This document shows, piece after piece, positions 2,562-37,126 of a DNA stretch of 64,000 nucleotides; the stretch's first letter is position 1, and each line of letters begins with the position of its first letter. The translations under genes and the position numbers were made by a program. A model generated the notes under the pieces. The model saw only the letters and a list, made by a program, of their open reading frames with translations, did no database searches and was not told the origin of the DNA. This DNA comes from Variovorax sp. PAMC26660 (GTDB lineage: Bacteria; Pseudomonadota; Gammaproteobacteria; Burkholderiales; Burkholderiaceae_C), in assembly GCF_014302995.1 (NCBI RefSeq), contig NZ_CP060295.1, positions 5,571,501 through 5,635,500 on the forward strand. Reading direction: 5' to 3'.

Positions 2562-3616
2562 GCCGGCTTTCGGGTCAGGAGCTTGTCCAGCCACTTGGCG
2601 CGGGACGTGATGAAGAGGGCGATGGTGGCGTTGATCACCTCGATGGCGGCCGCCGGCATGCCGACCATCACCGGCAGGTACAGCGCGGCCGACGCCAGCG
2701 CGCCGAAGAAGAGCGCGGAGACGGCCGTGCCCACGATGGACAACTGCGCCACCAGCGCGATCAGGATGGCGGTGAAGCCGTGCGCGGGCAGGAAGCCGCT
2801 CGCAAGGCGGCCGTTGGGCCCCAGCAGCTCGATGCCACCGGCCAGCCCGGCCAGGGCACCGCTCACGAGAAAGCTGAACAGGCCGATCCGCCCGACGCGT
2901 GCGCCTTGCCACGCCACCATGGTCGGGTTGCGCCCGGCCAGGTTGGCCACGATGCCCAGCGCCGTGCGGTTGGCCAGCAGCCACGACAGCACGAACACCA
3001 GCAGCGTCAGGATGATGATGAGCGGCGACACGCCCAGCGAATCGGAGATGCGGTACGCATCCGCAATCGGGCGGCTGGAGGCCTGTTGCCCCGAGCCCGT
3101 CGGGTCTTTCAGCGGGCCGGAAGTCACGTACACCAGCAGCAGGCCCGCGAGGAAGTTGCCCATCAGCGTGGTGATGACTTCGTCGGTGCCCGAGCGCAGG
3201 CGCAGCAGCCCTGGCCACATGGCCCACAGCGCGCCGCCCAGCATGCCCGCGAGCAGGCAGCACGACACGACGATCCATGCCGGTGCGCCCGACAGCCATT
3301 CGGCCGTGAACGCCGCAAAGATCGAGCCGATGTAGAACTGCCCCTGTGCGCCGATGTTGAAGAAGCCCGCGCGGAATGCGATGGCCACTCCCGTCGCGGT
3401 GATGAACAGCGGCATGGCCCAGCGCAGGCCCTGGTGCAGCGCACCGTCACGCAGGAACGCACCTTCGAGGATGCCGGTGAACAGCTCGCCGACCGGCAGC
3501 CCCGCGCAGAAGAACGCGAGCGCGCACAGCAACAGCGCGAAGCAGACGAAGAGCAGCACGCGCAGCACAGGCAGCATGCGCGCCAAAGAAAGGGAAGACA
3601 GGGCGTTGGGCGTCAT
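2558..3616 (-). CDS. ABC transporter permease, nucleoside/BMP type (first subunit)
   Basis: A 352-residue polytopic permease resembling YufP/NupP. It has an N-terminal membrane anchor (LLFVCFALLLCALAFFCAG), the family segment FRAGFFNIGAQGQFYIG, and the EAA-like loop region RSGTDEVITTLMGNF. Start 3616 overlaps the stop of the ATPase gene by four bases, and its own stop overlaps the next permease, so three transporter genes are translationally coupled. It transports the ligand delivered by the BMP lipoprotein-like receptor, likely a nucleoside or nucleobase. Confidence 0.88.
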   Translation of the reverse strand: MTPNALSSLSLARMLPVLRVLLFVCFALLLCALAFFCAGLPVGELFTGILEGAFLRDGALHQGLRWAMPLFITATGVAIAFRAGFFNIGAQGQFYIGSIFAAFTAEWLSGAPAWIVVSCCLLAGMLGGALWAMWPGLLRLRSGTDEVITTLMGNFLAGLLLVYVTSGPLKDPTGSGQQASSRPIADAYRISDSLGVSPLIIILTLLVFVLSWLLANRTALGIVANLAGRNPTMVAWQGARVGRIGLFSFLVSGALAGLAGGIELLGPNGRLASGFLPAHGFTAILIALVAQLSIVGTAVSALFFGALASAALYLPVMVGMPAAAIEVINATIALFITSRAKWLDKLLTRKPA

Positions 3617-5166
3617 GCGTGCGCTCCCACCATCGCCTGGCCGACCTGGCGCAGATCGTAGGGTGCGCTGTAGTCGCCGACGACCTGCCCGCGCAGCATG
3701 ACCAGCACGCGGTCGCTGATGTCGAAGAGTTCGTCGAGGTCGGAAGAGATCAGGATGATCGCGGCACCCCGGTCGCGCGCCTGGCGCAATGCCTTCCACA
3801 CATAGGCGGTGGCGCCGATGTCCAGGCCGCGCGTGGGTTGGGCCGCGATGATGAGGCGGGCGCTGTCGTCCACCTCCCGCGCGAAGATGACCTTCTGCGC
3901 GTTGCCGCCCGAGAGCGAGCCCGCGGGCTGGCTGCAGGTGGCGTAGCGCACGTCCCACTGCGTGAGGGCGGTGTCGCACTCGGCCTGCAGCTTCTTTGGT
4001 CGAACGAAGGACAGCAGGCCGTCTTTCAGCAGGCGGCCCATGGCCCAGTTCTCCCACAGGCTGCTGTTCAGCGAGAGGCCTTCCACGTTGCGCTCGAAGG
4101 GAATGATGCGAAGGCCGGCTGCGCGGCGCGTGGCAAGGTCGCTGTGCGTCAGGTCCTTGCCGTCGAAGCTGAGGGTGCCGCTGGCGGTTTCCGCCAATGC
4201 GGCGATGGCGCGCACGAGGGTGCGTTGCCCGTTGCCTTCGACGCCGGCGATGCCGATGATTTCTCCGGCGCGGATGTCCAGGCTCACATGGGCCAGCGCG
4301 GCGCCTTCGGCATCGGGCCTGGTCGACAGGTCGTGCATCCGCATGACGGTCGGTGCGGCGAGATTGGGCTTTCGGGTGACAGGCTCGCTGCCGGCCGGCG
4401 GCGGCGCCTTGGCATCGCCCATGATCCACTGGCTCAGGTCGGCGGCGCTGATCGAGGCGCAGGGCACCGGGCCCATGACATGTTCGCCGCGCCGCAGCAC
4501 GCTCACGGTGTCGGCAATGGCCATCATTTCGCGGATCTTGTGCAGGATGAGCACGACGGTCACGCCGCGCTTCTTCAATATGCGGATGCGCTCGAACAGC
4601 GTCTCGACACCGGCGGGTGCGAGCACGGCCGTCGGCTCGTCGAGGATGAGCACCTTGGCATCGGTCACCAGTGCCCGCGCGATCTCGATGCCTTGCTGCG
4701 TCTCGATCGGCAGGTTGCGAATGATCTCGCGCGGACTCACCGCAAGGCCCAGCCCGTCGAGGTGCGACTGCCAGCGCTTTTCGAGTTGGCGCGAGGTGAA
4801 AAGGCCCCGGTGCCGGTTCGATCCGAACTCCATCGCCTGCGCGACCGTGAACGAGGCCGGCAGGGCGAAGCTCTGGTGCACCAGCTCGACGCCGGCCGCG
4901 CGCGCCGCGCTCACATGGCCGGTGCGGATCTCGTGGTCACCGATGCGCACGCGCCCGTGCGTGGGCTTCACCAGCCCCGAGCAGACACGCGCAAAGGTGG
5001 TCTTGCCCGCACCGTTCTGGCCGACGACTGCATGAATCAGTCCTTGCTCGAAGGCGATGGAAACATCCGACAGCGCCTTCACGGTGTCGTACTGCACCGT
5101 GACGCCATCGAGGACCAGCGCGGCGCCTGCAGGGGCGGCCTCGCCGTTCAAGGAACTTCTGTTCAT
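3613..5166 (-). CDS. ABC transporter ATP-binding protein with two nucleotide-binding domains
   Basis: A 517-residue duplicated ATPase of the sugar/nucleoside uptake type (YufO/NupO-like). Domain 1 has Walker A GQNGAGKTT at 49-57 and Walker B LILDEPTA near 173-180, but its signature is degenerate (LPIETQQGIEIARAL). Domain 2 has a degenerate P-loop (GVEGNGQRTL) but a good LSGGNAQK signature. This asymmetry is normal in the family. It powers the two permeases encoded immediately downstream and sits 16 bp after the binding-protein gene. Confidence 0.9.
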   Translation of the reverse strand: MNRSSLNGEAAPAGAALVLDGVTVQYDTVKALSDVSIAFEQGLIHAVVGQNGAGKTTFARVCSGLVKPTHGRVRIGDHEIRTGHVSAARAAGVELVHQSFALPASFTVAQAMEFGSNRHRGLFTSRQLEKRWQSHLDGLGLAVSPREIIRNLPIETQQGIEIARALVTDAKVLILDEPTAVLAPAGVETLFERIRILKKRGVTVVLILHKIREMMAIADTVSVLRRGEHVMGPVPCASISAADLSQWIMGDAKAPPPAGSEPVTRKPNLAAPTVMRMHDLSTRPDAEGAALAHVSLDIRAGEIIGIAGVEGNGQRTLVRAIAALAETASGTLSFDGKDLTHSDLATRRAAGLRIIPFERNVEGLSLNSSLWENWAMGRLLKDGLLSFVRPKKLQAECDTALTQWDVRYATCSQPAGSLSGGNAQKVIFAREVDDSARLIIAAQPTRGLDIGATAYVWKALRQARDRGAAIILISSDLDELFDISDRVLVMLRGQVVGDYSAPYDLRQVGQAMVGAHA

Positions 5167-5182
5167 GCTGCAGCCGGAAGAA

Positions 5183-6235
5183 TCAAAGGACGGTGTTGAA
5201 CGGCACCTTGAGGGCGCCGCTGAGGATGGCCGCCTGCGCGGTGCGGATCTCGGCCATCGTCGCTTCGGCCTTGGCCGCGACCGCCTTGTCGCCGTCCTTC
5301 TGGAACAGCGGCGAGAGTTCGAGCGCGACGACGCCGGTGCCCAGGCCGGTGTGCAGGTGCGAGCCGCCCTTGCCGGTCTTCATGATGCGCGAGGCTTCGT
5401 CGTACAGCGACTTGCCGAAGTGCAGGCTGACGATGGAGATCAGCGACTTGGTGCCTTGCGGATACTGCGCCGGGTCGAGGCAGCTCACGAGGCGGCCGGG
5501 CTTGTCGTTGGCGGCGGCGATGATGCCCGCGTCGGTGGCGGCCGCATCGGTCTGGATGAAGTCGATGCCGCTGTTGTACATCTGCGTGGCGATCTCGCGG
5601 CCCTTCACCGGGTCCTGGAATGAGCCCGCGAAGGCCACCGTGACGGCCGCGTCCTTGCGCACCGACAGCACGCCGGCCTTGAAGGCGTTGAAGTCGGCGT
5701 TCAGCGGCGGGATCGACATGCCGCCGATGAAGCCGATCTTGCCGGTGGTCGACATGCGCCCCGCGAAGATGCCGGCGAGGTAGGTGCCCAGGTAGTAGTC
5801 GTACGACACCGTGGTCACGTTCGGGATCGCCGGCTTCATCTCGTCGCCGAACAGTTGCAGCCACTGCGTCTTCGGGTACTTGGGCGCCAGCGCCTTGAAT
5901 GGCTCCGTGACTTCGTTGAAGGTCGACACGATGACGGCCGCGCCGGCGTCGGCCAGCGTGCGGAAGATGGTCTCGTAGGTCGACGGGTCCTTGGCGTAGA
6001 TCGCGCGGGTCTGCATGCCCGTTTCCTTGCCCAGCAGTTTCAGGCGCGCAATCATCGCGTCGACTGCGCTGGCATCGCCGGCAGCCTGCGTGTGCACCAG
6101 CGCGATCAGTCCGCCCTTGGCGTGGGCGATCAACGGGAAGAGCGCGCTGGCCATGGCCACGCCGCTCAGGCTGGCTGCAGCTTTCAGGATCTGCCGGCGT
6201 GGGGTGGCGGCGCGAGAGGTGGCGTTGGTTGTCAT
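5183..6235 (-). CDS. BMP family ABC transporter substrate-binding protein
   Basis: A 350-residue periplasmic receptor with an N-terminal export signal (RRQILKAAASLSGVAMASALFPLIAHA). The RR followed by hydrophobic residues suggests Tat export, but a Sec signal is not excluded. The body matches basic membrane protein/PnrA-like nucleoside receptors (AAVIVSTFNEVTEPFKALAPKYP..., GTYLAGIFAGRMSTTGKIGF). No lipobox is visible. It precedes the ATPase and permease genes and should supply their substrate. Specificity is not readable from sequence; nucleosides or purine derivatives are the family norm. Confidence 0.9.
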   Translation of the reverse strand: MTTNATSRAATPRRQILKAAASLSGVAMASALFPLIAHAKGGLIALVHTQAAGDASAVDAMIARLKLLGKETGMQTRAIYAKDPSTYETIFRTLADAGAAVIVSTFNEVTEPFKALAPKYPKTQWLQLFGDEMKPAIPNVTTVSYDYYLGTYLAGIFAGRMSTTGKIGFIGGMSIPPLNADFNAFKAGVLSVRKDAAVTVAFAGSFQDPVKGREIATQMYNSGIDFIQTDAAATDAGIIAAANDKPGRLVSCLDPAQYPQGTKSLISIVSLHFGKSLYDEASRIMKTGKGGSHLHTGLGTGVVALELSPLFQKDGDKAVAAKAEATMAEIRTAQAAILSGALKVPFNTVL

Positions 6236-6287
6236 GCGGATATCTCTGGGGTTGAGGAACGGGCGGACTTGCGGGGAAAGGAAAGGC

Positions 6288-6611
6288 TCAGGGCGTGGGC
6301 GAGCTGGGGGCGGGATTCATGATCATCACGTCCTGGCTCTGGATGGCGTCCAGCGCCCACACGCTCTTGATGAAGGACTGCCAGTCGGGGTCGGCGTACA
6401 TCGCGGCGCGCCTGGCTTCGCGGTCGGCAAGGCTGTCGTAGGCCCAGATCAGCACGGTGGTGTGCAGCCGCCCGATCTCCGAGATGTAGAGGCCCACGAA
6501 CTTGTTCAGGTGCCGCTTCTGCACGGGCAGGCCTTCGCGTTCGTACTTCTCGCGCCACTGGTCGATGGTGCCGGGGCGGAAGGTATAGAGGCGGTGTTCG
6601 ATGATCATCAA
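6288..6611 (-). CDS. NIPSNAP family protein
   Basis: A 107-residue ferredoxin-like (dimeric alpha/beta barrel) protein. It starts MMIIEHRLYTFRPGTIDQW and carries the NIPSNAP-type segments KFVGLYISEIGRLHTTVLIWAYDSLADREARRAAM and DPDWQSFIKSV. Members are small cytoplasmic proteins of unclear biochemical role that often sit in catabolic operons. Here it lies 22 bp after the GMC oxidoreductase and 52 bp before the binding-protein gene, so it probably belongs to this nucleobase-type operon. Confidence 0.85.
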   Translation of the reverse strand: MMIIEHRLYTFRPGTIDQWREKYEREGLPVQKRHLNKFVGLYISEIGRLHTTVLIWAYDSLADREARRAAMYADPDWQSFIKSVWALDAIQSQDVMIMNPAPSSPTP

Positions 6612-6633
6612 GTGCTCTTTCTGTCCTGTGGAT

Positions 6634-8259
6634 CTACTGGCCGGCCAGGATGAATTCGGCGCACTTCTCGCCGATCATGATGGCCGGAGCATTGGTGTTG
6701 CCGCTCGAGATGATCGGCATGATCGAAGCGTCGGCCACGCGCAGGTTGGCGATGCCGTGCACCTTGAGGCGGTGGTCGACCACCGCCATGTCGTCGTTGC
6801 CCATCTTGCAGGTGCCGACCGGGTGGAAGGTCGTCATGGCGGTGGCGCGCAGCCAGGCCATCAGGTCTTCGTCGCTTTGCTTGTCCGGGCCGGGTGCAAT
6901 TTCCTTGCCACGGTAGGCGTCGAACGCGGGTTGATCGATGACCTGTCGCGTTGCGCGGATCGCATTGACCATGGTCTTGCGGTCGAAGTCGGTGTCCAGG
7001 TAGTTGGGCTGGATCAGCGGTGCGTCGGTGGGGCGACCCGAGCGCAGGCGGATGCGGCCCTTGCTGTTGGGGTTGACCGGCCCCACGCGCAGCGTGAAGC
7101 CATGCTTGGCCTCGATGCTGGTCTTCTTGAACGGGTTCGGAAAATACAGGTTGGCCGTCTTCTCAAGCGCGGGCATGAAGTGCAGTTGCACATCGGGGTT
7201 CGCAAGCCCGGGCGAGGTCTTGATGAAGGCGCCGGCCTCGTACGGAAAGGTGGTGGTGATGCCTTCCCCGAACAGCATGCCTTGCACGACCGAGAACGCG
7301 ATCTTGTCGAAGCGCAGATCCTTGTAGAGCGTGACGGGCTGCTTGCATTCGTAGGCCATGACGCAATCGACATGGTCCTGCAGGTTGCCGCCCACGCCGG
7401 GCAGGGCCTTCAGCACCGGAATGTCGTGCTGTTCCAGCTCGGCCCGCGGGCCAACGCCGGACAGCATCAGCAGATGTGGCGAGCCGACGACGCCGGCGCA
7501 AAGAATCACTTCCTTGCGGGCGCGCACCGTCTGCATCTGGCCCTGGACTTCGTAGGCCACGCCCACGGCCTTCGACTTCTCGATGATCACCTTGTGCGTC
7601 AGGGCGCGCGTGACGACCTTGAGGTTGCTGCGCTTGAGCGCTGGCCGCAGGAAGGCGAACGACGTGGACCAGCGCTTGCCCTTCTTGATGGTGAAGTCGT
7701 AGCGCCCGAAGCCCAGTTGGGTAGGGCCGTTGAAGTCGTCGTTCAGCGGGTAGCCGGCCTGCTTGCCCGCTTCGCAGAACACGTCGAGCAATGCATTCCA
7801 GCCGCGCGCGCGGCACACCGTCAGCTCGCCTTGCGTGTTGTGGAACACGCCTTCGCGCTGGATGTGGCCTTCGGAGCGCTTGAAGGCTGGCAGCACGTCC
7901 TTGTACGACCAGCCGGGGTTGCCCATGGCGGCCCAGCCGTCGTAGTCCTGCCTGCCGCCACGCACATAGATCATTCCGTTGATGGTCGACGTGCCGCCCA
8001 GCACCTTGCCGCGCGGCCAGTAGAGCTTGCGGCCGTTGAGGTTGGGCTCGGGCTCGGTGTGGAAGTGCCAGTTGTAGATGCCGGACTGGAACAGCTTGCC
8101 CATCAGCATCGGCAGGCGGAACAGCGGGTTCGAGTCTTTGCCGCCGGCTTCGAGCAGCAGCACACGCGTGGCGGGCCGGGCGCTGAGCCGCGCGGCGAGG
8201 GCGCAGCCGGCAGAGCCCGCGCCCACGATGATGTAGTCGTAGTCGTTCGCGTCGTTCAT
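6634..8259 (-). CDS. GMC family FAD-dependent oxidoreductase (choline-dehydrogenase-like)
   Basis: A 541-residue flavoprotein. The N-terminal FAD-binding motif IIVGAGSAGCALAARLS is at about 10-26. The GMC signature GGTSTINGMIYVRG follows near residue 90. The C-terminal catalytic segment is FHPVGTCKMG, followed by SSGNTNAPAIMIGEKCA (His/Asn active-site pair). GMC enzymes oxidise alcohols, choline or glycosides. Its place directly after the UDG-like gene (4-bp gap) and before the NIPSNAP and transporter genes suggests it oxidises the imported compound or a derivative. The substrate is unknown. Confidence 0.9.
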   Translation of the reverse strand: MNDANDYDYIIVGAGSAGCALAARLSARPATRVLLLEAGGKDSNPLFRLPMLMGKLFQSGIYNWHFHTEPEPNLNGRKLYWPRGKVLGGTSTINGMIYVRGGRQDYDGWAAMGNPGWSYKDVLPAFKRSEGHIQREGVFHNTQGELTVCRARGWNALLDVFCEAGKQAGYPLNDDFNGPTQLGFGRYDFTIKKGKRWSTSFAFLRPALKRSNLKVVTRALTHKVIIEKSKAVGVAYEVQGQMQTVRARKEVILCAGVVGSPHLLMLSGVGPRAELEQHDIPVLKALPGVGGNLQDHVDCVMAYECKQPVTLYKDLRFDKIAFSVVQGMLFGEGITTTFPYEAGAFIKTSPGLANPDVQLHFMPALEKTANLYFPNPFKKTSIEAKHGFTLRVGPVNPNSKGRIRLRSGRPTDAPLIQPNYLDTDFDRKTMVNAIRATRQVIDQPAFDAYRGKEIAPGPDKQSDEDLMAWLRATAMTTFHPVGTCKMGNDDMAVVDHRLKVHGIANLRVADASIMPIISSGNTNAPAIMIGEKCAEFILAGQ

Positions 8260-26974: not shown

Positions 26975-27964
26975 ATGCTGAAAAGATTCAAGGCGCTTGA
27001 ACCCTTCGATGCGTCCGGTGCGTTGCACGGCGTCTTGGTTGCCGCGTTGCTGGCAGCCAACGCATGTTCCGCACAACAGCCGGTGGCCGGTCCGACGGTG
27101 AAGAGGGACATTTGCGCGACCGCGATCAATGACCCAGCGCAGACCATCGACGACGCAACCCGCGAGCGCTTCACCAAGGAATTCAACGACGAGGTCGCTC
27201 GCGGCGGCGGCGCGCTGCTTGACGTCTTCGACCGGCCGCCCAAGGCGCTGTATTCGGTTCCCCCAAGGTATCCGGCGTGGGCCAGGCGCTGCGAGGTTCA
27301 GAGCAGAGTCATCGTCGAACTTGTGATTGGCCCGGAAGGAGAGGTCGTTCGCACGAGAGTGCTTGGCAATCCACCGCGAGTGCTTGCTGACGCCGCCGTT
27401 CTTGCCGTGCGCCAATGGAGGTTTCAACCGCAAACGCTCGGTGGTGAACCCACAAGCGCAAGGTTTCTGCAGCCCTTCAATTTCCTGCTCACGCCTGCTT
27501 CTGAGGAGGACGGTTCGCGAGCCGTTATCGGGCACCGGGATCTTTCGGCAGGTGATGAAAAAAAGTCGTTGCAACTCAGCTATGCGATTGCGCAGCTGGA
27601 ATCGGACCTGGGGCCCGGCGTAAGGGTCGTCAACATGCAGACCATGGAGTTGCCGTTGGTCGATTACGCACGGTCGGTCCAATCCAGGATGGACAGCATC
27701 GAGGCAGAAGAAGGCACGCCCCTCGTCAATCAGAATCTTCGCGTTGCCCTTACGGTGAATGCGGACGGAAGCGTTGCCGACGTACGGGCTTGGGGGGCGG
27801 CCAATGAGGCGTCGCAGCAACGCGCGGAGCAGGCCGCTCGGCGAGCCGCAGCCTTGGGGCCGTTGCCGCGTACCCCTGGCGGCGAGATCAAGAAAATCGT
27901 GTTTGTTCTGCCGTTCGCATTCGAGGCTGATCGAGGCATGCAGATGCCGTCGAAGAGTCCGTGA
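26975..27964 (+). CDS. TonB C-terminal-domain lipoprotein
   Basis: A 329-residue protein. A hydrophobic segment ends in a lipobox-like LLAANAC near residue 29, so it is probably a lipoprotein. The middle has a TonB C-terminal fold pattern: PRYPAWARRCEVQSRVIVELVIGPEGEVVRTRVLGNPP...AVRQWRFQPQTLGGEP. A second, weaker repeat of the domain is near the C-terminus (LRVALTVNADGSVADVRAWG). It lacks the long proline-rich spacer and N-terminal anchor of true TonB. It may act in envelope protein contacts rather than energy transduction. Confidence 0.75.
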   Translation: MLKRFKALEPFDASGALHGVLVAALLAANACSAQQPVAGPTVKRDICATAINDPAQTIDDATRERFTKEFNDEVARGGGALLDVFDRPPKALYSVPPRYPAWARRCEVQSRVIVELVIGPEGEVVRTRVLGNPPRVLADAAVLAVRQWRFQPQTLGGEPTSARFLQPFNFLLTPASEEDGSRAVIGHRDLSAGDEKKSLQLSYAIAQLESDLGPGVRVVNMQTMELPLVDYARSVQSRMDSIEAEEGTPLVNQNLRVALTVNADGSVADVRAWGAANEASQQRAEQAARRAAALGPLPRTPGGEIKKIVFVLPFAFEADRGMQMPSKSP

Positions 27965-28011
27965 GTTCGTGGTGCGGCGGAACTGCCCGATGGCGACGCC
28001 CGGCGTCGACC

Positions 28012-28088
28012 GCATGGCCCGCGTCGATCAATTCCTGAACCACGACGGAGCCGACCCAACCGGTGGCGCCAGTGACAAAAACATGCAT
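28012..28088 (-). pseudogene. N-terminal remnant of an SDR/NAD-dependent epimerase gene
   Basis: On the minus strand ATG 28088 opens MHVFVTGATGWVGSVVVQEL, followed by IDAGHAV. This is an unmistakable Rossmann GxxGxxG start of an atypical short-chain dehydrogenase or epimerase. After about 26 residues the similarity stops and the frame runs on as a shadow of the TonB-domain gene to 27888. Only the first tenth of the gene remains. It lies 15 bp after the O-methyltransferase stop, so it was the second gene of that operon before a deletion. Confidence 0.7.
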
Positions 28089-28103
28089 GGCGCAGAGCCT
28101 TCC

Positions 28104-28763
28104 TCAACCCAAGCGCATGGACAGTTCGACATCGCCGGCGAACGGCACCGACAGGTATCCACCGTCAGGCGAGCGCACGCGTGCCAGGTACTCCGGGCTG
28201 CTGTCGGCGTTGTCCGCCACGATCAGCGCGCCCGGTCGCAGGCGGCCCTCGACCAGCGCCAGGATGTCGGGGTAGAGCGCCTTTGCGCCATCGAGCAGCA
28301 GCAGGTCGATGGACTCTGGCAGGCCGGTTGCCAGCGTCTTCAGTGCATCGCCTTCGCGGATCTCGACCAGGTCGCTCACGCCGCCCTCGGCCAGATGCTC
28401 GCGGGCCTTGGCGATCTTCGATGGCTCGAACTCGCTGCCGATCAGGCGGCCACCGCCGTTGTCGCGCAGCGCCGCGGCCATGTACAGGGTGGACAGGCCG
28501 AAGGAGGTGCCGAACTCGATGACGTTGCGCGCGTTCATGCTGCGCGCCAGTTGGTACAGCAGCACGCCGGTCTCACGCGACACCGGCAGCCACAGGTCTT
28601 TCATGCGGCTGTAGAGGTCGAGGTATTCGGTCTTGCTGCGCATCAGCCGTTCGCGTTCCTCACGGCTGATGCTGGCCAGGGCAGGGTTGGTTGCCGCGGC
28701 GGCTTGCAGGAACAGGCGGTCCAGCAAGGGGGCCATGGGTGCAGTGGTCAAGGTCGTTGTCAC
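28104..28763 (-). CDS. Class I SAM-dependent O-methyltransferase
   Basis: A 219-residue enzyme. SAM motif I is NVIEFGTSFGLSTLYMAAAL, followed by LIGSEFEPSKIAKAREHL and the acidic post-motif IDLLLLDGAKALYPDIL. This matches the caffeoyl-CoA/catechol O-methyltransferase-like family. It is divergent from a TetR gene across 81 bp, so probably repressed by it and induced by a small (possibly toxic, phenolic) compound. The downstream partner gene is reduced to a remnant. Confidence 0.88.
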   Translation of the reverse strand: MTTTLTTAPMAPLLDRLFLQAAAATNPALASISREERERLMRSKTEYLDLYSRMKDLWLPVSRETGVLLYQLARSMNARNVIEFGTSFGLSTLYMAAALRDNGGGRLIGSEFEPSKIAKAREHLAEGGVSDLVEIREGDALKTLATGLPESIDLLLLDGAKALYPDILALVEGRLRPGALIVADNADSSPEYLARVRSPDGGYLSVPFAGDVELSMRLG

Positions 28764-28844
28764 AGGGTTCTTTCGTTTGAAAAGCAGATGCGAAATAATA
28801 TGAAGAACCCTTCACGTTTGCTATTCGCGTTGCGGAACCCTCTC

Positions 28845-29477
28845 ATGCCCGACCGCCCAAGTGCCTCCATCTCCTCTCGCAGAAAGCCCAAGCAGGCGCG
28901 CTCGGCCGATCTTCTTGAGGCCATTCTTCAAGCAGCTATTCAGGTTTTGGCGAAAGAAGGCGTGCACCGCTTCACAACCACGCGCGTCGCCGAGAGGGCC
29001 GGCGTGAGCGTCGGGTCGGTTTATCAATACTTCCCGAACAAGGCGTCGATCTTGTTTCGCCTGCAGAGCGACGAATGGAGGCAGACCACGGAGTTGATGC
29101 GCGGCATCCTCGGGGACGCGCAACGCCCCGCGCTCGAGCGCCTGCGCATGCTCACGCACGCCTTCATCCGCTCCGAGTGCGAAGAAGCACAAGTGCGCAC
29201 CGCGCTCGGCGACGCCGCGCCGTTTTACCGCGATGCACCCGAGGCGCAGGAAGTGCGCGCCGCCGGCGATGAATTTGTGCGCGAGTTCATGCAGCAAGCC
29301 CTGCCAGCCGCCTCCGATGCCACACGTGACATGGCGGGCGACCTGATCGTGAGAACGCTCAGCACGGTGGGCAAAGACTTTTCCGAGAGTCCTCGAACCG
29401 ACGCCGAGATAGAGGCCTGGGCGGACTCGCTGGCCGACATGCTTTGTGCCTACATGGAAAGCCTTGCATCGCGCTGA
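28845..29477 (+). CDS. TetR family transcriptional regulator
   Basis: A 210-residue repressor. A basic N-terminus (RRKPKQARSADLLEAILQAAIQVLAKEG) precedes the HTH FTTTRVAERAGVSVGSVYQYFPNKASILF. ATG 28845 is chosen; an in-frame ATG at 28800 would add 15 residues and cannot be excluded. The C-terminal domain is helical and variable. It faces the O-methyltransferase gene and most likely controls it and itself. Confidence 0.88.
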   Translation: MPDRPSASISSRRKPKQARSADLLEAILQAAIQVLAKEGVHRFTTTRVAERAGVSVGSVYQYFPNKASILFRLQSDEWRQTTELMRGILGDAQRPALERLRMLTHAFIRSECEEAQVRTALGDAAPFYRDAPEAQEVRAAGDEFVREFMQQALPAASDATRDMAGDLIVRTLSTVGKDFSESPRTDAEIEAWADSLADMLCAYMESLASR

Positions 29478-29507
29478 GCCGGCGATCGCGTTGGCAGAAC
29501 CGCCTTT

Positions 29508-29640
29508 TCAGATGAGCCCCCTCGTCGCCGCCTTCAACGTCGCGGCTGCACGGGTCGAGCATTCGAGCTTGAGGAACACGCGTTCGACATGCGTTCGCAA
29601 TCGAAGGTGAGCTATCTCTTTGGCGTTAGTCGCTGTTGGG
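29508..29640 (-). pseudogene. Remnant of a LuxR-type HTH regulator at the island edge
   Basis: The minus strand encodes TNAKEIAHLRLRTHVERVFL, then KLECSTRAAATLKAATRGLI and a stop at 29508. This is the C-terminal LuxR/FixJ helix-turn-helix (TNxEIA ... THVxRVxxKL ... TRAxAxxKA), but about five residues of the turn and recognition helix (normally LSxxTV) are missing. Upstream of residue TN the frame shows no receiver domain. It is GC-rich, unlike the island that starts immediately to its right, so it belongs to the old chromosome. Confidence 0.6.
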
Positions 29641-29683
29641 AGGCTAATATCCATGAAAGTTGTAGCCAATTTCTTCAAATCAC

Positions 29684-30421
29684 ATGCAAGCCCTAGCCCC
29701 TCAAAATTCGACATCTCGATCCTTGCAGGAGCGTGAGCCCGAGGCCAAATTTGAGCATGTTGACACGTCGTTTTTATTCGAAGAACTCAGGCGTGTATAC
29801 CAATCTTCCCAAAAGCCGATTTCCGTAGATATGCGCCAACTTGTTTCTTGGCTTAAGGCGGGCGACCAAACAACTCATTTTCTACATCCCTATCCCGGAA
29901 AATTGTTGCCTCACATTGCGCATTTTTTTGTCCACGCCAGCGTGCTCAACAAAGCAAAAAAACCAATCCTTGATCCTTTTTGCGGCTCGGGCACAGTCGC
30001 TCTCGAGGCCTCATTAGCAGGAATCGAAACCTATGTCGCCGATGCAAACCCATTTGCGATATTGCTCACAGCAGTCAAAAGCTATCCTTACTCTTGTACA
30101 GAGCTTCAAGAGGAACTTGTTGCGCTGGCTCGGCGAGCCCGAGGTTATAGATCAGCACCGCCAGTGGAAATAGTGAATGCAACCACTTGGTATCACCCAG
30201 AGGTAAAGGCCAAGCTTGAGCGCGTGCATCGGGCGATTGTAAAAATCAGTGATGAAAAAATTCGCGCATTCTTCTTTATCGTATTCTCGGCAACAGCTAA
30301 AAAACTAAGCTACGCTGATCCAGCGATAGGTGTGCCAGTAAAATTGCGCGTTAAACCACAGTTTTCAACAGCCGAAAATCGGCGCATCGAAAAAAAAAAT
30401 CGCAGCCATCAACTCTTCTAA
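29684..30421 (+). CDS. DNA methyltransferase (N4/N6 amino-MTase), N-terminal part
   Basis: This frame encodes 245 residues. They include HPYPGKLLPHIAHFFV, the SAM-binding motif I DPFCGSGTVALEA (residues 97 on) and the target-proximal SYADPAIGVPVKLR seen in amino-methyltransferases. It ends 20 codons after frame loss in the A10 tract at 30390-30399. Removing one A would join it to the next frame, giving a 469-residue enzyme with motif IV TSPPYG. The DNA is much more AT-rich than the surroundings. It is the first gene of a tight four-gene operon; no restriction endonuclease is recognisable. No good RBS precedes ATG 29684. Confidence 0.8.
   Translation: MQALAPQNSTSRSLQEREPEAKFEHVDTSFLFEELRRVYQSSQKPISVDMRQLVSWLKAGDQTTHFLHPYPGKLLPHIAHFFVHASVLNKAKKPILDPFCGSGTVALEASLAGIETYVADANPFAILLTAVKSYPYSCTELQEELVALARRARGYRSAPPVEIVNATTWYHPEVKAKLERVHRAIVKISDEKIRAFFFIVFSATAKKLSYADPAIGVPVKLRVKPQFSTAENRRIEKKNRSHQLF
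30390..30399 (+). repeat. A10 homopolymer tract where the methyltransferase frame breaks
   Basis: Ten consecutive A residues. Read as nine, the frame continues R-I-E-K-K-I-A-A-I-N-S-S-N-V-L without a stop to 31094. Such tracts favour replication slippage, transcriptional slippage and base-calling error. Confidence 0.85.
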
Positions 30422-31094
30422 TGTACTTGCAGAGTTTGAGCTTCAGGCATTGGAAAGCATTGATAGAGTGCGAAAGGCCAATGTTCAAAAACCAACACGA
30501 AAGCCTGTCTCCGTGGTTGGATTTGACTGCAAATCTTTGCACGCACCTAATAACATTGCATGCGCGCTGCCTAGTAATTCAGTCGCACTGACGATCACTT
30601 CTCCTCCGTACGGAAGTGCACAAAAATATGTGCGAGCGACTAGTTTAGGTTTGAACTGGCTAGGTTTGGCGAAGCCTAATGAGTTGGCCCTCTTGGAATC
30701 GCGTTCAATAGGTCGAGAGCACGTGAAAATTCTTGCCAGTGGAAATATTTCTTTTGGCTCAAAAATAGATGGGCAATTAGAAAAAATCGAAAAACAAAGC
30801 CCTGTCCGCGCCGCAATAACTCGAGAGTATTTATGTGAAATGCGAAAATGTGTCGATGAACTAAGTCGTATTGCTATGCCCGGTGGGCGGGTTGTGATGA
30901 TCGTTGGGAATAATCGAGTTGCTGGTGAAATTGTCGAGAACGATGCTTTTTTAATTGACGAATTTAAAGCTCGAAATTTAAGTTTAGATCTTTGGCTTTT
31001 AGACAAAATTCGAGCTCGAAGATTGATGCGTAGCCGCCATGAAACAGCTGGGCTAATCGATTACGAATCCATTTTGGTTTTTCGAAAGCAATAA
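30399..31094 (+). CDS. DNA methyltransferase, C-terminal part (frameshifted)
   Basis: This is the continuation of the methyltransferase after the A10 tract. It is open from the tract to TAA 31092-31094 and carries the catalytic motif IV TSPPYG (30597-30614), followed by the C-terminal Rossmann half (MPGGRVVMIVGNN). Alone it lacks the SAM-binding motif and could not be active. A TTG at 30450 could in principle start it, but motif order shows that it is half of one enzyme. The TSPPY form is compatible with N4-cytosine or N6-adenine methylation. The next gene starts at the very next base. Confidence 0.75.
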   Translation: MAAINSSNVLAEFELQALESIDRVRKANVQKPTRKPVSVVGFDCKSLHAPNNIACALPSNSVALTITSPPYGSAQKYVRATSLGLNWLGLAKPNELALLESRSIGREHVKILASGNISFGSKIDGQLEKIEKQSPVRAAITREYLCEMRKCVDELSRIAMPGGRVVMIVGNNRVAGEIVENDAFLIDEFKARNLSLDLWLLDKIRARRLMRSRHETAGLIDYESILVFRKQ

Positions 31095-32054
31095 ATGGAT
31101 CGGGCCACTGTCAACAGAGTTTTGCGATCACTCTCGGAGCACGCTTGGGAAAATGAAATTAGATGGCCTCATATCCAGTCCTGGGAGGCCAATTTCACTG
31201 GGGAAGTTTACTCTGAAGACGAAGAGCGTCTGTACGCATTGTTCGCACTGACACGCTTCATGTATTTTGGGCGGCAGGCGATACTCGAAATGCTCAAATC
31301 TCTTTATCGAGATCATTTCAGATCACCATTAATTCAACGGGCTAGGCGAAATCACAACAACACCAAAGATTGGGGAATTCTCGAGGCTGCATTCAAGCAG
31401 GAGCTAGCTGCGACAAAGTTTCTCGGTGTCGGAAATCCTGCGGAAAGTGGGGCTCATCTGCTCTATCGATTCCGGCAAGTGAATCGCCTATCAAAAGAAT
31501 TATTTTCAGATATATCTACAGAATTCGTGTCAAGAGTGGTAGGCATCAATGGCGTTGCAACAGTGCAGCTTGAGCGCCGCCATGCTCAGATAAATCGTTA
31601 CGTATTTTTCGACGACTTAGTGGGGTCGGGGACTCAAGCATCGATTTATCTTGCAGATCAGCTCAAGAAAATTCGCCAAGCTAATGCGAATATCGATCTT
31701 CGTTTCATGTGCTTGTTTGCGACAACTGCAGGGCTGCAAAAATTAAATACAACCCCCCTTTTTGCCGGCAATGCGGTTGCTCTCTTTGAGCTGGATTCGA
31801 CATATCACTGTCTCACGTTAAATTCCCGGCATTTTAAAAATCCACCATCATGGTTTGACATCGGAAAAATGACAAAAATTGCCAGCCATTATGGTGCTGC
31901 CCTGCAGCCCCAGTTACCACTGGGCTATAAAAATGGTCAATTATTGCTCGGCTTTTCGCACAATACGCCCGATAACACATTGCCAATTTTTTGGGACGAA
32001 GGCGCTCTGCGCCCTTGGCAGGCTGTGTTCAAAAGGTTTGACAAAATTTATTGA
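31095..32054 (+). CDS. Phosphoribosyltransferase-like protein (conflict-system PRTase type)
   Basis: A 319-residue protein. The key segment is YVFFDDLVGSGTQ at 170-182, a PRPP-binding loop of the phosphoribosyltransferase fold (acidic pair D173/D174, then GSGT), as in ComF-like enzymes. A long helical N-terminal region precedes it. Families of this type have been described in predicted prokaryotic conflict operons beside ORC/CDC6-like ATPases; I recall this from the literature and could not check it. ATG 31095 abuts the methyltransferase stop. It could use PRPP or nucleotides as a signal or toxin activity, or be a nucleotide-sensing dead enzyme, though the loop looks intact. Confidence 0.75.
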   Translation: MDRATVNRVLRSLSEHAWENEIRWPHIQSWEANFTGEVYSEDEERLYALFALTRFMYFGRQAILEMLKSLYRDHFRSPLIQRARRNHNNTKDWGILEAAFKQELAATKFLGVGNPAESGAHLLYRFRQVNRLSKELFSDISTEFVSRVVGINGVATVQLERRHAQINRYVFFDDLVGSGTQASIYLADQLKKIRQANANIDLRFMCLFATTAGLQKLNTTPLFAGNAVALFELDSTYHCLTLNSRHFKNPPSWFDIGKMTKIASHYGAALQPQLPLGYKNGQLLLGFSHNTPDNTLPIFWDEGALRPWQAVFKRFDKIY

Positions 32055-32065
32055 GGGAGTAAGTT

Positions 32066-34060
32066 GTGGAAAAATCAAATCCCTTTACTCTTGTGCGGGC
32101 GTCGGACTATACGGATTCACAAATTAATGATTTGTGGGTTGAGTTGGGACCTGAAGTTATTAGCGCCGTACTTGAGCCAAAAGCTGTCCATTCGAAATAT
32201 ATCTTGGGTGGCAAGGGCTCGGGAAAGACACACATCCTACGCTATTACTCTTATACGGCCGCCCGCTTAAGGAAACCTGGGGAGTCTGGTATTTCGGTTG
32301 TCCGTCGTCTAAAATTCTTAGCGATATTTATGCGCGCTACCGCATTGGATGCCGCTCGGTTTGAGGTAGGCACTGATCGGCACAGTCGTTGGCAAACACT
32401 TTTCGGTGTTTATTTAGAATTGAGGCTTGTGGAAGGACTCCTAGATGCGCTCTGCGATATTAAGGCGTCTTCGCGCGATTTGGTATTTGACGACACCGCG
32501 TTCGTTGGCGTTTTAGCGCGCAACGTAACAGATCCAGAGCTCTTGCGGTGCGACAGCCTGGAGGATCTGCGGGATTGGGTGATCGAATGGCGTCGAATTA
32601 TTGACGAAGCCATAAACAATGCTGCGTTCACCGGGAAATTGGATTTGACAATTCCGTTTTCAGTGGGCTCACTGTGCTTGCCAGTTAAAGACGCCCTGTC
32701 AAAGTGGAGTAAGGAGCTGCAAGGGATACCTTTGATTTATTTGATCGATGAAATTGAGAATTTCTCTGTTGATCAGCAAAAAGTTATTAACTCTCTTCTC
32801 CGCTACGCCGAAGGAAAGGCTACGTTTAGAATTACTGGCCGGCTTTATGCCCGAAAAACATTCGAGACAATTGGCGGTGAGGAAAATCGTGAGGGCTCGG
32901 AATTTCGAACAACTAATCTCGATTTGATGTTGCGAAAATATCCCCGATACTCTGAGTTTGCGCAAAAATTTGTGCTTAAAAGGATAACTGCGGCTGGCGA
33001 GCGGATTGGACCAAAAAATATCGAGCCTCGACAGATTTTTGCAACCCTTAACTTCGACGAATTTTGCACTTCAGCTTTTTCTGTCTTGGGTATTGATGAG
33101 CTTGATAATTCGTTCGCAGAGGAGTTTTATTCTCTCTTGTCTCAATTCTCGGAACGTAAGCAGCCTAATAGCTCGCCTGAGGTTGCGGTATCGCGTTTGA
33201 TTGATGGATTTCCACTAATCTTGCAAAAACTGAATTTGCTCAGATTTTGCAAAGAGTTTGATCCCGAAGTGGATGTTTGCGCGTTGGCTGAGAAAATTTC
33301 TGAAGAGTGTATTTCTTTTTTGCTGGGCAAGAAAAAGGGAATTACGTATGCAAATGCATACGGGCACTATAAGGGTGATCTTTTTGCCCAAATTTGCAAA
33401 GAATCTAAGCGCCTTCGAATGGTTCCTTATGCGGGATTTGAAACATTTGTCAGCATGTCTTCAAGTAATCCTAGGAATTTGTTGATTATTTTAGGTCGAG
33501 CTTATGAAATAGCAGCATTTCGAGAGATCGAGTTTGGAAGTGGGGTTCCTCTTTCAATTGAGCTACAGACCGAAGCTGCACTTGAAGCTGCTCGATTTAT
33601 CTATGAGCGCGATACGAATCACGGAAGCGCTTCTGACCTTGCCCGTGCGGCAACCGAGCGATTGGCGACGATATTACGAACCGCACGCTACGCATTGAAT
33701 ATTCCTGAAGTCTCCCCCTTGGTGGTCAGTTTTTCCGACACCTCATTGACGGCGGAAGCTCGGGTGACATTGGAAGCGGCTCTAAATTATTCTTTCCTTA
33801 TAGAAATTTATTCAGGCCGGCCGGACCGAAATTCGGAGCAAATTCGGCGCAAGATGCAATTGAATCCGATGCTTTCACCCCATTGGGGGCTTTCGACTGG
33901 TCGGCGCGGCGATCTCAGCTTGAGCACGCAATTGGTGAACTCCATCTTTGACTCAAAACTCTCAAGTGAATTTGATGTACTGGGTAACGCTCTTCGTGTG
34001 AAGTGGAATCAGCCTTTTAAAGATTTTCAAAATCAGCCGGCACAGGAAGAGTTGTTCTAA
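32066..34060 (+). CDS. ORC/CDC6-like AAA+ P-loop ATPase
   Basis: A 664-residue ATPase. Walker A is GGKGSGKT at 48-55 and Walker B is IPLIYLIDEIENF with D228/E229. A candidate arginine-sensor region follows (FRITGRLYARKTFE). The C-terminal 350 residues are helical and may form winged-helix or other scaffold domains. GTG start 32066 has a strong RBS (GAGGGAG). The architecture fits ORC/CDC6-type or STAND-like ATPases that act as sensors or switches in defence operons. The next gene begins at the base after its stop. Confidence 0.75.
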   Translation: MEKSNPFTLVRASDYTDSQINDLWVELGPEVISAVLEPKAVHSKYILGGKGSGKTHILRYYSYTAARLRKPGESGISVVRRLKFLAIFMRATALDAARFEVGTDRHSRWQTLFGVYLELRLVEGLLDALCDIKASSRDLVFDDTAFVGVLARNVTDPELLRCDSLEDLRDWVIEWRRIIDEAINNAAFTGKLDLTIPFSVGSLCLPVKDALSKWSKELQGIPLIYLIDEIENFSVDQQKVINSLLRYAEGKATFRITGRLYARKTFETIGGEENREGSEFRTTNLDLMLRKYPRYSEFAQKFVLKRITAAGERIGPKNIEPRQIFATLNFDEFCTSAFSVLGIDELDNSFAEEFYSLLSQFSERKQPNSSPEVAVSRLIDGFPLILQKLNLLRFCKEFDPEVDVCALAEKISEECISFLLGKKKGITYANAYGHYKGDLFAQICKESKRLRMVPYAGFETFVSMSSSNPRNLLIILGRAYEIAAFREIEFGSGVPLSIELQTEAALEAARFIYERDTNHGSASDLARAATERLATILRTARYALNIPEVSPLVVSFSDTSLTAEARVTLEAALNYSFLIEIYSGRPDRNSEQIRRKMQLNPMLSPHWGLSTGRRGDLSLSTQLVNSIFDSKLSSEFDVLGNALRVKWNQPFKDFQNQPAQEELF

Positions 34061-34921
34061 ATGGATTACTCTTATTACTATCGGCGAACAATTAATGTTC
34101 AAAGAATTAAGGATGAATTACAGGGGTTTGATGTTTTTATTTCGGCATACAATTCCAGTGATCGAGTAAAAAATGTTTATGGCGAAGTTCGAGCTGCCAG
34201 AAGTTATTGGGTGATTCACCCTGAATACCAATATGCGGCAATAGAGCGCCCTCAGAATGGTGTTTTAATTTGTCCAGCCTCTTTAGATGAGGTGGCTCAA
34301 GTTGGTGCAATATTTGACGCTGTTGGGGATTTGTCCGGGTTGAGGGTTTGCATTGACATCACCGGATTTATGCGCCACGTGCTTACGTTCTTGATTGCAA
34401 AATTGGCTCGAGACAATTCGTGTAATTTATTCGCTTTGTACTCAGAGCCGGAGGCCTATCTTAAACAAGAAAACACGCAATTTGCTACGACTACTTCTGG
34501 AATCGTAAGACCTGTTCGTGGAATGGCTGGGCCGACTAAACCACAGGCGCTGGATCACTTGGTAATTGCGGTGGGCTATGATCACCGTCTAATCTCTGAA
34601 GTCGTGAACAGTAAAGACGATTCGCGTGTCTATCCAATATTCGCGTTCCCACCTTTGAGCGCCGATATGTATCAGCAAAGCGCAATTCGAGCTTCGGAAA
34701 GCGGCGACGTTGCGCAAAGTTCAGACTGGTTGAACAACCGACAGTTTGCGCCGGCAAACGATCCTTTTGCTACCGCGGAGATTTTGAGTTCCTTGATCGC
34801 TCAAATTGACCGTAGACCTGAGCCGGCTAATATATATATATATCTCCACTTTCAACGAAGGTTCAAGCATTGGGTTTCGCAATCTACTGGCATATTGAGG
34901 GCCGGCAGCGGGGGGCGGTGA
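34061..34921 (+). CDS. Unrecognised alpha/beta protein of the island operon (frame broken at (AT)7)
   Basis: As read, 286 residues; I do not recognise the family. It has Rossmann-like alternation: FDVFISAYNSSDRVKNVYGEV, WVIHPEYQY, LRVCIDITGFMRHVLTFLIA, LDHLVIAVGYDHRLIS. The DITGF strand-turn recalls CARF-like or other nucleotide-sensor folds, but that is only a resemblance. The last 27 residues after NIYIY look like noise. Losing one AT unit in the repeat at 34830-34843 restores a convincing end (see 34843-35007), for 314 residues in all. As the last gene of the operon it may be the effector or the sensor. Confidence 0.65.
   Translation: MDYSYYYRRTINVQRIKDELQGFDVFISAYNSSDRVKNVYGEVRAARSYWVIHPEYQYAAIERPQNGVLICPASLDEVAQVGAIFDAVGDLSGLRVCIDITGFMRHVLTFLIAKLARDNSCNLFALYSEPEAYLKQENTQFATTTSGIVRPVRGMAGPTKPQALDHLVIAVGYDHRLISEVVNSKDDSRVYPIFAFPPLSADMYQQSAIRASESGDVAQSSDWLNNRQFAPANDPFATAEILSSLIAQIDRRPEPANIYIYLHFQRRFKHWVSQSTGILRAGSGGR
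34830..34843 (+). repeat. (AT)7 dinucleotide repeat inside the last island gene
   Basis: Seven AT units encode N-I-Y-I-Y. With six units the frame switches to the one reading NIYISPLSTKVQALGF, which looks like real protein. With seven, the frame ends at TGA 34919-34921. Confidence 0.85.
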
Positions 34922-35007
34922 CAATTTTGCTGCCGGAGTGTTTGACGTATACTCGCGAAACTAGTATCGGATTAAAGAAGTTGTGGATGTACGAATTAGA
35001 GTTCTAA
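34843..35007 (+). pseudogene. Displaced C-terminus of the last island gene
   Basis: In the +1 frame the DNA reads SPLSTKVQALGFAIYWHIEG, followed by RQRGAVTILLPECLTYTRET, SIGLKKLWMYELEF and TAA 35005-35007. It is free of stops for 54 codons, with strand/helix-like composition and codon use matching the rest of the island. It is best read as the true C-terminus of the 34061 gene. It has no start codon of its own. Confidence 0.65.
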
Positions 35008-35175
35008 GGGATTTCTAAATTTCGGCCTACGTAACCGCCAATTGATTTTTATCGACTAAGCGATCAAGGGGCCTGCAACGCTTGTGTATGCGTTTAGGGA
35101 CTGGTTTTCGAGCAATAAGAAGGCCTACCGAGTACGGAGCCTCCTGTGCGTCTCATCGCTCGGCCGCTGCGAGCA

Positions 35176-35808: not shown

Positions 35809-36975
35809 TCAGCGCGATGCGTCCGGCCCGATTCCCATCGCCCGCCACATCGCGCGAATGATGCGAAACGACCGCTCGTCGCCCACCATCCCGCGCTGCA
35901 TCTTGTTCATCGCGTAAGCGAAGCTCGTGCGCGCATCCATGTCGATGAGCGCAAACGATCCGCCGCCGCCAGACCAGAAAAGCGAGTTGGGATTCGGTAG
36001 CGAGAGCGACAAGATCGGGCTCGGCAAACCAAAGCCCAGGCCGAAGCGCACCTGCATGCCCCGCATCGCGAGGTCAGGCCCTTCGATCTGCTGCGCCAGC
36101 GCCTTGCGGCATCCGGCCTCCGACATGATCCGCTTGCCCTTCGCCATGCCACCATTGGCAAGCAGCGCATGAATCTCGGCAATGGCGCGTGCATTGCCAT
36201 GCCCGTTCACCGCCGGAATCTCCGCGCCGCGCCAAGCGCGCGTGCGCGTCGATGGCACATCGGTCTGCGTGTCGATGAAGGTCACTCGCTGGATGTCGCT
36301 GAGCTGCAGCTCGGCCGTGTTGCGCGTCACTTCAAAGCCTACGAGGTCCGCCACGCGATGGTCTTCCGAGGCCGGCAGGCCGATCCAGAAATCCGCGCCC
36401 AGCGGCTGTGCGATTTCTTCGCGGAACACGGTGCCGAGGCTCTTGCCGGTGACGCGGCGCACCACCTCGCCAACGAGAAAGCCGAAGGTGTAGATGTGAT
36501 AGCCCGAGGCCGTGCCCGGCTCCCACAGCGGCGCCTGGGCGGCGAGCATCGAGGTCACCTTGTCCCAGTCGTAGAAGTCTTCGCCGCTGCACGCCGGGCG
36601 CCAGCCGGAGAGGCCCGCGGAATGGCTGAGCAACTGCGCGACGGTGATGGCCGCCTTGCCGTTGGCGGCGAACTCGGGCCAGTACTTCGCAACGGGCGCC
36701 GCGATGTCGAGCACGCCACGGTCGGCCAGCAGCAGGGCCGTGAGCGCGGCCATGGTCTTGGTGACGGAGTAGACGTTGACGAGGGTGTCGCGCTCCCAGG
36801 CCCGGGTCTTCGCCTCGTCCGCGAAGCCGCCCCAGAGGTCGACCACGGTCTCGCCGTTCACCGTCGCGCAGAACGAGGCGCCGAGTTCTTCACCGTTGGC
36901 GAAGTTGGCTTCGAAGGCCTCCCTCGCGCCAGCGAAGCGGTCGTGTGCGAATCCGTGAACCGTGCCTTGGTGCAT
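35809..36975 (-). CDS. Serine hydrolase, beta-lactamase/EstB family
   Basis: A 388-residue enzyme of the class C beta-lactamase/DD-peptidase fold. The nucleophile motif is SVTK (NVYSVTKTMAALTALLLADRG). The family HxxG-type segment is LLSHSAGLSGWRP, and a Tyr region is GYHIYTFGFLVGEVVRRVTG. The C-terminal glycine-rich strand is WSGGGGSFALID. Without a signal peptide it is probably a cytoplasmic esterase rather than an antibiotic-resistance enzyme. Start 36975 has AGGAG upstream. It is divergent from the OmpA-domain gene. Confidence 0.88.
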   Translation of the reverse strand: MHQGTVHGFAHDRFAGAREAFEANFANGEELGASFCATVNGETVVDLWGGFADEAKTRAWERDTLVNVYSVTKTMAALTALLLADRGVLDIAAPVAKYWPEFAANGKAAITVAQLLSHSAGLSGWRPACSGEDFYDWDKVTSMLAAQAPLWEPGTASGYHIYTFGFLVGEVVRRVTGKSLGTVFREEIAQPLGADFWIGLPASEDHRVADLVGFEVTRNTAELQLSDIQRVTFIDTQTDVPSTRTRAWRGAEIPAVNGHGNARAIAEIHALLANGGMAKGKRIMSEAGCRKALAQQIEGPDLAMRGMQVRFGLGFGLPSPILSLSLPNPNSLFWSGGGGSFALIDMDARTSFAYAMNKMQRGMVGDERSFRIIRAMWRAMGIGPDASR

Positions 36976-37126
36976 GCGTGGGTTTCTCCTGAACGGGGAG
37001 GGGGCGGATTGTGGACCGCCCGCGAATGCAGCGCAAAGCCATCGGGTGGCATAGGCCGTCCGTCGAATGCACAGCAGCCTGTGCACTCTCTAGCATCGAG
37101 GTGTCGCCGCTTTTCCCGATATCCAG

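Follow-up and report, generated by a model that had tools for sequence, protein, structure and literature searches.

CARF and SAVED receptors are understood to read messages made by Cas10 or CD-NTases, and effectors of this kind include Cap4, Cap5, Can1, Card1 and Csm6. Other described systems combine a methyltransferase with an ORC/Cdc6-type AAA+ ATPase and no restriction nuclease, as BREX does, or use a phosphoribosyltransferase (PRTase) as the toxic partner of a phage-defence pair, as stated for ShosTA in the covered passages of PMC11878078. In the DNA analysed here, a stretch of 64,000 nucleotides from Variovorax sp. PAMC26660 (contig NZ_CP060295.1, positions 5,571,501 to 5,635,500; hereafter the window), an operon of four genes encodes a DNA amino-methyltransferase, a PRTase, an ORC/CDC6-like AAA+ ATPase and a tandem-CARF protein. 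We propose with moderate confidence that this is a mobile anti-invader operon, in which the ATPase would serve as the switch, the CARF protein as its gate and the PRTase as an effector acting on the pyrimidine nucleotide pool. The proposal builds on a conserved gene unit, on protein families, predicted folds and conserved active-site and ligand motifs, on the exchange of genes around the ATPase and CARF pair, and on the adjacency of thymidylate enzymes.

The likeness to Cap4, Cap5, Can1, Card1 and Csm6 lies in a predicted tandem CARF-like fold and a ligand motif, but no nuclease or protease effector domain is seen in the CARF protein of the window and the operon holds no synthase. The CARF6 clade of PADLOC (CARF_CARF_CARF, PDLC01910-01924) is matched by the product of the fourth gene and by 10 of the 10 divergent proteins scanned from the CARF position of related operons; in contrast to that clade, the CARF gene here adjoins the gene of an ORC-CDC6-like ATPase, in a unit without a CRISPR polymerase. 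Compared with BREX, the window operon additionally has a CARF protein and a PRTase, and its ATPase is 664 amino acids long, whereas BrxC, a member of the ORC/Cdc6 clade, has 1200-1300 amino acids according to the covered part of PMC12839542. Neither PglZ nor BrxC is among the PADLOC matches listed for the five open reading frames (ORFs) of the window operon (for the first ORF, the best 25 of 27). In ShosTA the partner of the PRTase is DprA-like, and CARF, ORC and methyltransferase proteins do not occur in the passages covered (PMC11878078). The window PRTase reaches only 18.4 bits with the PRTase-like anti-phage family DS-32 (NCBIfam NF053875, DS32_1), whose cut-off is 250. Judging from its name, DS32_1 would belong to the validated systems of the DefensePredictor paper, which in the parts covered names its validated systems DS, lists a PRTase in a figure legend and reports 42 of 94 transcription units as validated in E. 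coli, while the term DS-32 does not occur in the covered text (PMC13092281).

The Pfam families ORC-CDC6-like (PF24389), PRTase-CE (PF24390) and HD-CE (PF24391), the last of which stands in the place of the PRTase in a relative of the operon, carry three consecutive accessions, which suggests a common source that had already linked them. These names are silent on the CARF partner, the exchange of the methyltransferase and the thymidylate enzymes. Our literature searches, outside whose coverage key reviews of CARF and conflict systems lay, returned no paper recognised as describing the methyltransferase-PRTase-ORC-CARF set; an earlier description of it is likely. A preceding sequence-only reading of the window, which relied on no database searches, had known of no described mechanism for such a set. 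This is consistent with the literature covered, but the parts already bear conflict or defence names in Pfam and PADLOC, so that the set itself is probably known.

A conserved unit around an ATPase and a CARF protein

All ORFs of the window operon lie on the plus strand. The ATPase (32066-34060) matches PF24389 with E=1e-122 (411 bits, cut-off 27), and its Walker A (GKGSGK) and Walker B (DE) motifs are intact and conserved in an alignment of 22 sequences. The PRTase (31095-32054), the proposed effector, matches PF24390 with E=1.2e-56 and qualifies as a type I PRTase by its predicted fold and by the two aspartates of the phosphoribosyl pyrophosphate (PRPP) loop, D173-D174, which are invariant. 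Both proteins are full-length members of their families, and a housekeeping identity, which the sequence-only reading had named as the outcome that would count against a conflict system, was rejected, because both match conflict-system profiles (Pfam, PADLOC) and their partners co-occur in relatives. A sequence search against solved structures gave no convincing relatives of the PRTase or the ATPase (best E 0.17 and 0.078, unrelated proteins) and none of the CARF protein.

The product of the fourth gene (34061-34921), formerly described as an unrecognised alpha/beta protein, can now be named a tandem-CARF (CARF6, SAVED-like) receptor: the PADLOC CARF6 profile matches its residues 1-260 with E=4.9e-100, the homology extending to about 34830 and being followed by an out-of-frame tail. 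It matches no Pfam family at E<=1 and thus has no Pfam-level SAVED membership. The predicted structure of an intact relative has the CARF Rossmann fold, and CARF and SAVED chains top a second structure comparison; KaiC entries in the Foldseek list (five of six with E<=0.001) were set aside on account of their low probability and TM score. Among 36 sequences, residues D101, T103, G104 and F105 are invariant and R107 is nearly so. The CARF ligand motif, which we take to be defined as [DN]x[ST]xxx[RK], is conserved in this family.

The methyltransferase is encoded in two pieces. The N-terminal piece (29684-30421) holds motifs X (HxYPxK) and I (DPFCGSGT) and matches the UPF0020 methyltransferase profile with E=3e-9; the C-terminal piece (30450-31094), in another frame that is open slightly upstream of the listed start at 30450, holds motif IV (SPPY). 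Both pieces score below the cut-off of the N6_N4_Mtase profile; PADLOC assigns MTase_II to the methyltransferase and PRTase_III-A to the PRTase. Uncut relatives encode the enzyme as one gene of 441-501 amino acids; all 25 relatives compared share motif X and SPPY, and 21 of these 25 fit the motif I pattern used. The SPPY motif presumably hints at N4-cytosine chemistry. A cognate restriction nuclease was not found, since none of the window ORFs matches a nuclease family (Pfam, PADLOC) and the unit has no further conserved gene. Because the methyltransferase lies in two frames, the four genes appear as five ORFs. The methyltransferase and PRTase genes abut, as do the ATPase and CARF genes, and a gap of 11 bp separates PRTase and ATPase.

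A scan of genome contigs with an alignment of the ATPase gave 31 loci in named genomes. Order and strand of the genes are the same in all 31, an arrangement that for this reason is far beyond chance; all four genes are present in 29, and L028 and L029 stop at a contig end. The hosts belong to Pseudomonadota, Bacteroidota, Nitrospirae, Verrucomicrobia and Chlorobiota, to metagenome-assembled genomes (MAGs) of the Acidobacteriota type and to one Heimdallarchaeota MAG, whose locus lies on a 6.8 kb contig, so that a binning error is possible. A CARF-anchored search of viral contigs gave five contigs with four full operons and one that starts inside the ATPase gene. The ATPase is carried by 12 of 72,556 plasmid records, eight of which cover at least 80% of it, and the five plasmid loci of the first group that were read (L063-L067) have all four genes, several of them split in L065. 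The distance matrices of the proteins show correlations of 0.80-0.92, a level that none of 2000 permutations reached (25 of the 31 loci; the Mantel test omitted L016, L019, L020, L026, L028 and L029, which are split, truncated or of uncertain start). The genes thus travel together, although co-evolution and common descent would both give such a correlation, and the distances of the CARF protein track those of the ATPase best. A fifth conserved gene was not found: the groups recurring in at least three of the 31 flanks were, by reading, one transposase and one integrase.

In a broader sample of 398 genomes, 14 exceeded the PF24389 cut-off. Among nine neighbourhoods read, the window included, a CARF gene adjoins the ATPase gene in seven, and a PRTase or HD protein is encoded upstream in seven; the CARF profile alone matched three of the 398 genomes, each time adjoining the ATPase. 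Homologues scattered without their partners, the other outcome that the sequence-only reading had set against its own proposal, are therefore not what we see, as the partners co-occur in close and middling relatives and in most of the nine broader neighbourhoods. In L136 the family ATPase lies within a 1250-amino-acid open frame (3461-7213) with a long N-terminal part, and the divergent ATPase gene of L069 has no DNA-level match in E. coli genomes.

The setting of the operon is that of mobile elements and defence genes. Its GC content (guanine plus cytosine) is below that of the flanks in all 26 loci with sufficient flanking sequence and in 17 of 19 further loci. A PADLOC scan covered 57 neighbours; ten were inspected singly, of which five match defence or modification proteins, one matches TniQ (L029) and four had no match (the Pfam and PADLOC tables of neighbour families hold the first 25 families). 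The defence neighbours are type I restriction (L012), part of MzaA (L013), a type IV restriction/GmrSD-like gene (L003), methylases (L032) and the Gabija protein GajA (L018). Location on plasmids and viral contigs and beside such genes supports a conflict system. Together with the conserved co-occurrence and the conflict-system profiles, it lends the corresponding proposal of the sequence-only reading what we judge to be partial support.

Divergent relatives differ in the genes around the ATPase and CARF pair. Some with the PRTase-ATPase-CARF trio carry an N6-type methyltransferase instead, placed before the trio (L068, L073), after it (L069, L070, L100 and, weakly, L071) or on the other strand (L072). 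L073 lies on the Klebsiella plasmid pKP048, the single record read among the Klebsiella plasmid records; it stands for a group of 148 plasmid records, of which 130 are from Klebsiella and 147 match at least 80% of the query ATPase. An HD protein together with a C5 methyltransferase replaces the PRTase in L101, L138, L139 and L141, and in L133 an HD protein does so without a methyltransferase match. HD-CE was confirmed by Pfam for L101 only, and single proteins of L101 used as queries match the other HD loci (E 2e-27 to 4e-93 for HD, 4e-16 to 2e-68 for CARF). The profiles for these variants drew in part on proteins that position or annotation had assigned to them (HD, C5 and CARF of L138 and L139; the N6 set), and single outside queries reproduced the HD, C5, CARF, ThyX and dUTPase assignments. 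In L134 (7035-8975, minus strand) and L137 (7329-9248, plus strand), a homologous protein of ~640 amino acids (26% identity) without methyltransferase motifs stands beside the trio, near which no methyltransferase match was found. As the ATPase and the CARF protein stay while PRTase and methyltransferase are exchanged, a switch-and-effector immune system fits; the pattern of genes suggests that ATPase and CARF form the switch and that the PRTase is an exchangeable effector. PADLOC PDLC01925 (CARF6--CARF_STK_AAA) weakly matches the L070 CARF protein and the L101 ATPase, possibly reflecting a fused form with a kinase effector.

Thymidylate enzymes beside the operon and the proposed mechanism

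Of 59 loci, 12 have enzymes of the thymidylate (dUTP-dUMP-dTMP) path, namely ThyX and two unrelated dUTPases, beside the operon: ThyX in L015, L023, L064, L065, L066, L067, L138 and L141, an all-alpha dUTPase in L069 and L070, and a trimeric dUTPase in L026 and L100. All 12 lie no more than 1.2 kb from the operon, in DNA that totals 126 kb, and none was found in 409 kb of further flank; a uniform draw gives p ~3e-8 for this placement, treating the 12 as independent though they are not. Their position and strand vary between lineages, and operons of the PRTase and of the HD type are both included. The dUTPase stop of L026 precedes the start of the methyltransferase by a few bases, and in L066 a small annotated gene separates ThyX from the operon. 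These neighbours are the strongest pointer to the target, and because they adjoin the operon, and given the chemistry of the PRTase family, the pyrimidine nucleotide pool is the likely target. We know of no report of thymidylate enzymes beside such operons, and no literature search was aimed at that point. Directly upstream of the dUTPase-PRTase-ATPase-CARF-methyltransferase operon of L070, on a Moraxella plasmid, lies a NACHT-domain gene (2182-4281).

We hypothesize the following course of events. The methyltransferase would mark self DNA, and the ORC/CDC6-like ATPase, serving as switch, could assemble on invading or replicating DNA. The tandem-CARF protein would bind a nucleotide ligand and thereby gate the ATPase. 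The released PRTase might then act on PRPP and pyrimidine nucleotides, disturb the nucleotide pool, most likely in its deoxyuridylate/thymidylate (dUMP/dTMP) branch, and thereby make the synthesis of phage DNA fail. ThyX or dUTPase beside some operons may tune or spare the thymidylate supply of the host. An anti-phage function is what we infer for the operon as a whole, as are DNA sensing by the ATPase, the ligand of the CARF protein and the substrate of the PRTase.

Several observations weigh against this proposal, our best explanation. The 12 thymidylate neighbours collapse to about seven independent lineages by our own count, a number that still gives ~4e-5 (0.236 to the 7th power, calculated by hand), and the dUTPase gene of L100, which runs opposite to the operon, may have a housekeeping role. 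Among the nine neighbourhoods read in the broader sample, a clear CARF protein is missing in G187 and G287, the CARF match of G274 is very weak (17 bits), and a PRTase or HD protein was not found in G274 and G287. The GC content of the L072 and L141 operons is not lower than that of their flanks. In the fold comparison of the PRTase, purine, uracil and orotate PRTases score equally well, with modest Z, so that the substrate is unreadable from the fold. The window copy is broken in two genes. Finally, the ligand of the CARF protein has no known maker in most hosts.

This last point concerns the source of the message. Csm1-type Cas10 (TIGR02578) was over its cut-off in 1 of 32 host genomes and SMODS (PF18144) also in 1 of 32, and the window genome, which lacks any TIGR02578 match, has neither; Cmr2-type Cas10 and other CD-NTase families were not searched, and draft genomes can miss genes. 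Weaker TIGR02578 matches occur in seven more genomes, those of G422 (E=2.6e-38) and G415 (E=3.5e-14) being possibly true Cas10, and a Pfam scan of the window ORFs shows no CD-NTase linked within the operon. A role as type III CRISPR accessory was rejected for most hosts on the Cas10 count, and the source of the ligand is unexplained because both families are so rarely over their cut-offs. It would be supplied by the operon itself if the PRTase were an alarm synthase that makes the nucleotide read by the CARF protein, with the ATPase or another factor as the killer. PRTases do make nucleotides from PRPP, and a CARF protein is present in genomes with so few recognised writers; nevertheless we consider this unlikely, since CARF6 is kept in L101, L133, L138, L139 and L141, where HD replaces the PRTase and the ligand therefore cannot depend on it. 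For the same reason, that the CARF protein stays where the PRTase is absent, we regard the PRTase as more likely an effector than a ligand maker.

The thymidylate neighbours could also be read in terms of DNA or nucleotide modification, with PRTase, ThyX and dUTPase preparing an unusual pyrimidine and the operon marking DNA, the pool not being depleted. A methyltransferase is indeed present in most loci, but ThyX or dUTPase was not seen beside 47 of the 59, the trio of L134 and L137 is accompanied by the unrelated ~640-amino-acid protein and no methyltransferase match, and the CARF and AAA+ parts suit signalling better; this appears less probable still. Very improbable, in our view, is that the operon serves the upkeep or replication of mobile elements, with the ORC-like ATPase as an initiator or partner of plasmid replication. 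The resemblance to ORC/CDC6 and the occurrence on plasmids agree with such a role, but contigs as long as 0.5-5 Mb carry several of the 31 genome loci, three of the plasmids read carry their own RepA or RepC nearby, and neither CARF proteins nor PRTases have a known replication role.

Returning to the anti-invader operon, a bolder and rather doubtful extension is that it represents a new class of nucleotide-signalling immunity. Here the ORC/CDC6-like ATPase and an orphan tandem-CARF protein would form a plug-in switch without CRISPR polymerase or CD-NTase, driving exchangeable PRTase or HD effectors against the thymidylate branch, with ThyX and dUTPases repeatedly recruited and, in the window, control by slippage. 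Apart from this extension, the tandem-CARF family seen here is widespread, usually has an ORC/CDC6-like ATPase as its partner and reads a message for which no writer is known. Exchange of the effector and recruitment of three unrelated enzymes of the dTMP path turn the role of the PRTase into a testable question on pyrimidine pools during infection.

Interrupted frames and the low-GC island

The sequence-only reading, which spoke of four genes, did not report that two of them are interrupted. The methyltransferase frame breaks at an A(10) tract (30390-30399, plus strand) and the CARF frame at an (AT)7 tract (34830-34843, plus strand), as found by repeat and frame analysis. The remainder of the CARF gene (34828-35007, plus strand, profile positions 258-315) runs in another frame to its stop and gives a second profile match at 34828-35004 with E=1.3e-23. 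Since these two frames are interrupted at simple repeats, the operon, taken at face value, is switched off or reduced, and its sequence suggests that it is phase-off, decaying or misread. Host DNA sampled beyond the island that holds the operon (458,550 bases) contains homopolymers of at most 8 and lacks AT dinucleotide arrays of 5 or more; repeats as long as those of the operon are thus unseen there, and the sample is uninformative on error rates at such tracts.

Whether the window copy is a dead or decaying operon or carries two sequencing errors at repeats, rather than being phase-variable, appears evenly balanced. Two genes out of frame, and split copies elsewhere, speak for decay or error. 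On the other side, the island has no simple repeats longer than the two at which the breaks fall, as slippage would give, and coding is still recognisable past both in other frames; slippage is the natural cause of both. Other broken copies concern ThyX, methyltransferase and ATPase in L065 (4732-9996), the PRTase in L016 (6928-7971) and the ATPase in L026 (7842-10051), and loss or switching off of operon copies may be common.

The operon lies in a low-GC island (29600-35050, no strand). As recognised from the sequence alone, the island is AT-rich, with 45.6% GC (29601-35050) in DNA of ~65%; per kb, GC is 0.447-0.471 between 30 and 35 kb, 0.573 and 0.584 in the edge windows and 0.606-0.707 elsewhere. 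Scans for tRNA genes, Rfam families and repeats gave no insertion signature, and a clean empty site was not obtained from the fetched stretches of five same-genus genomes and of G170, a genome of another family. Those five genomes match the left flank of the window only up to 29453-29484 in the stretches fetched; they share the TetR-type gene left of the island (27759-29477), and their fetched DNA beyond it differs. The beta-lactamase-fold gene of the right flank (35809-37086) matches G170 at 83%, and there it is adjoined by the DNA that lies at 24.5-26.2 kb in the window. As the left and right flanks match different genomes, the whole stretch is a variable region.

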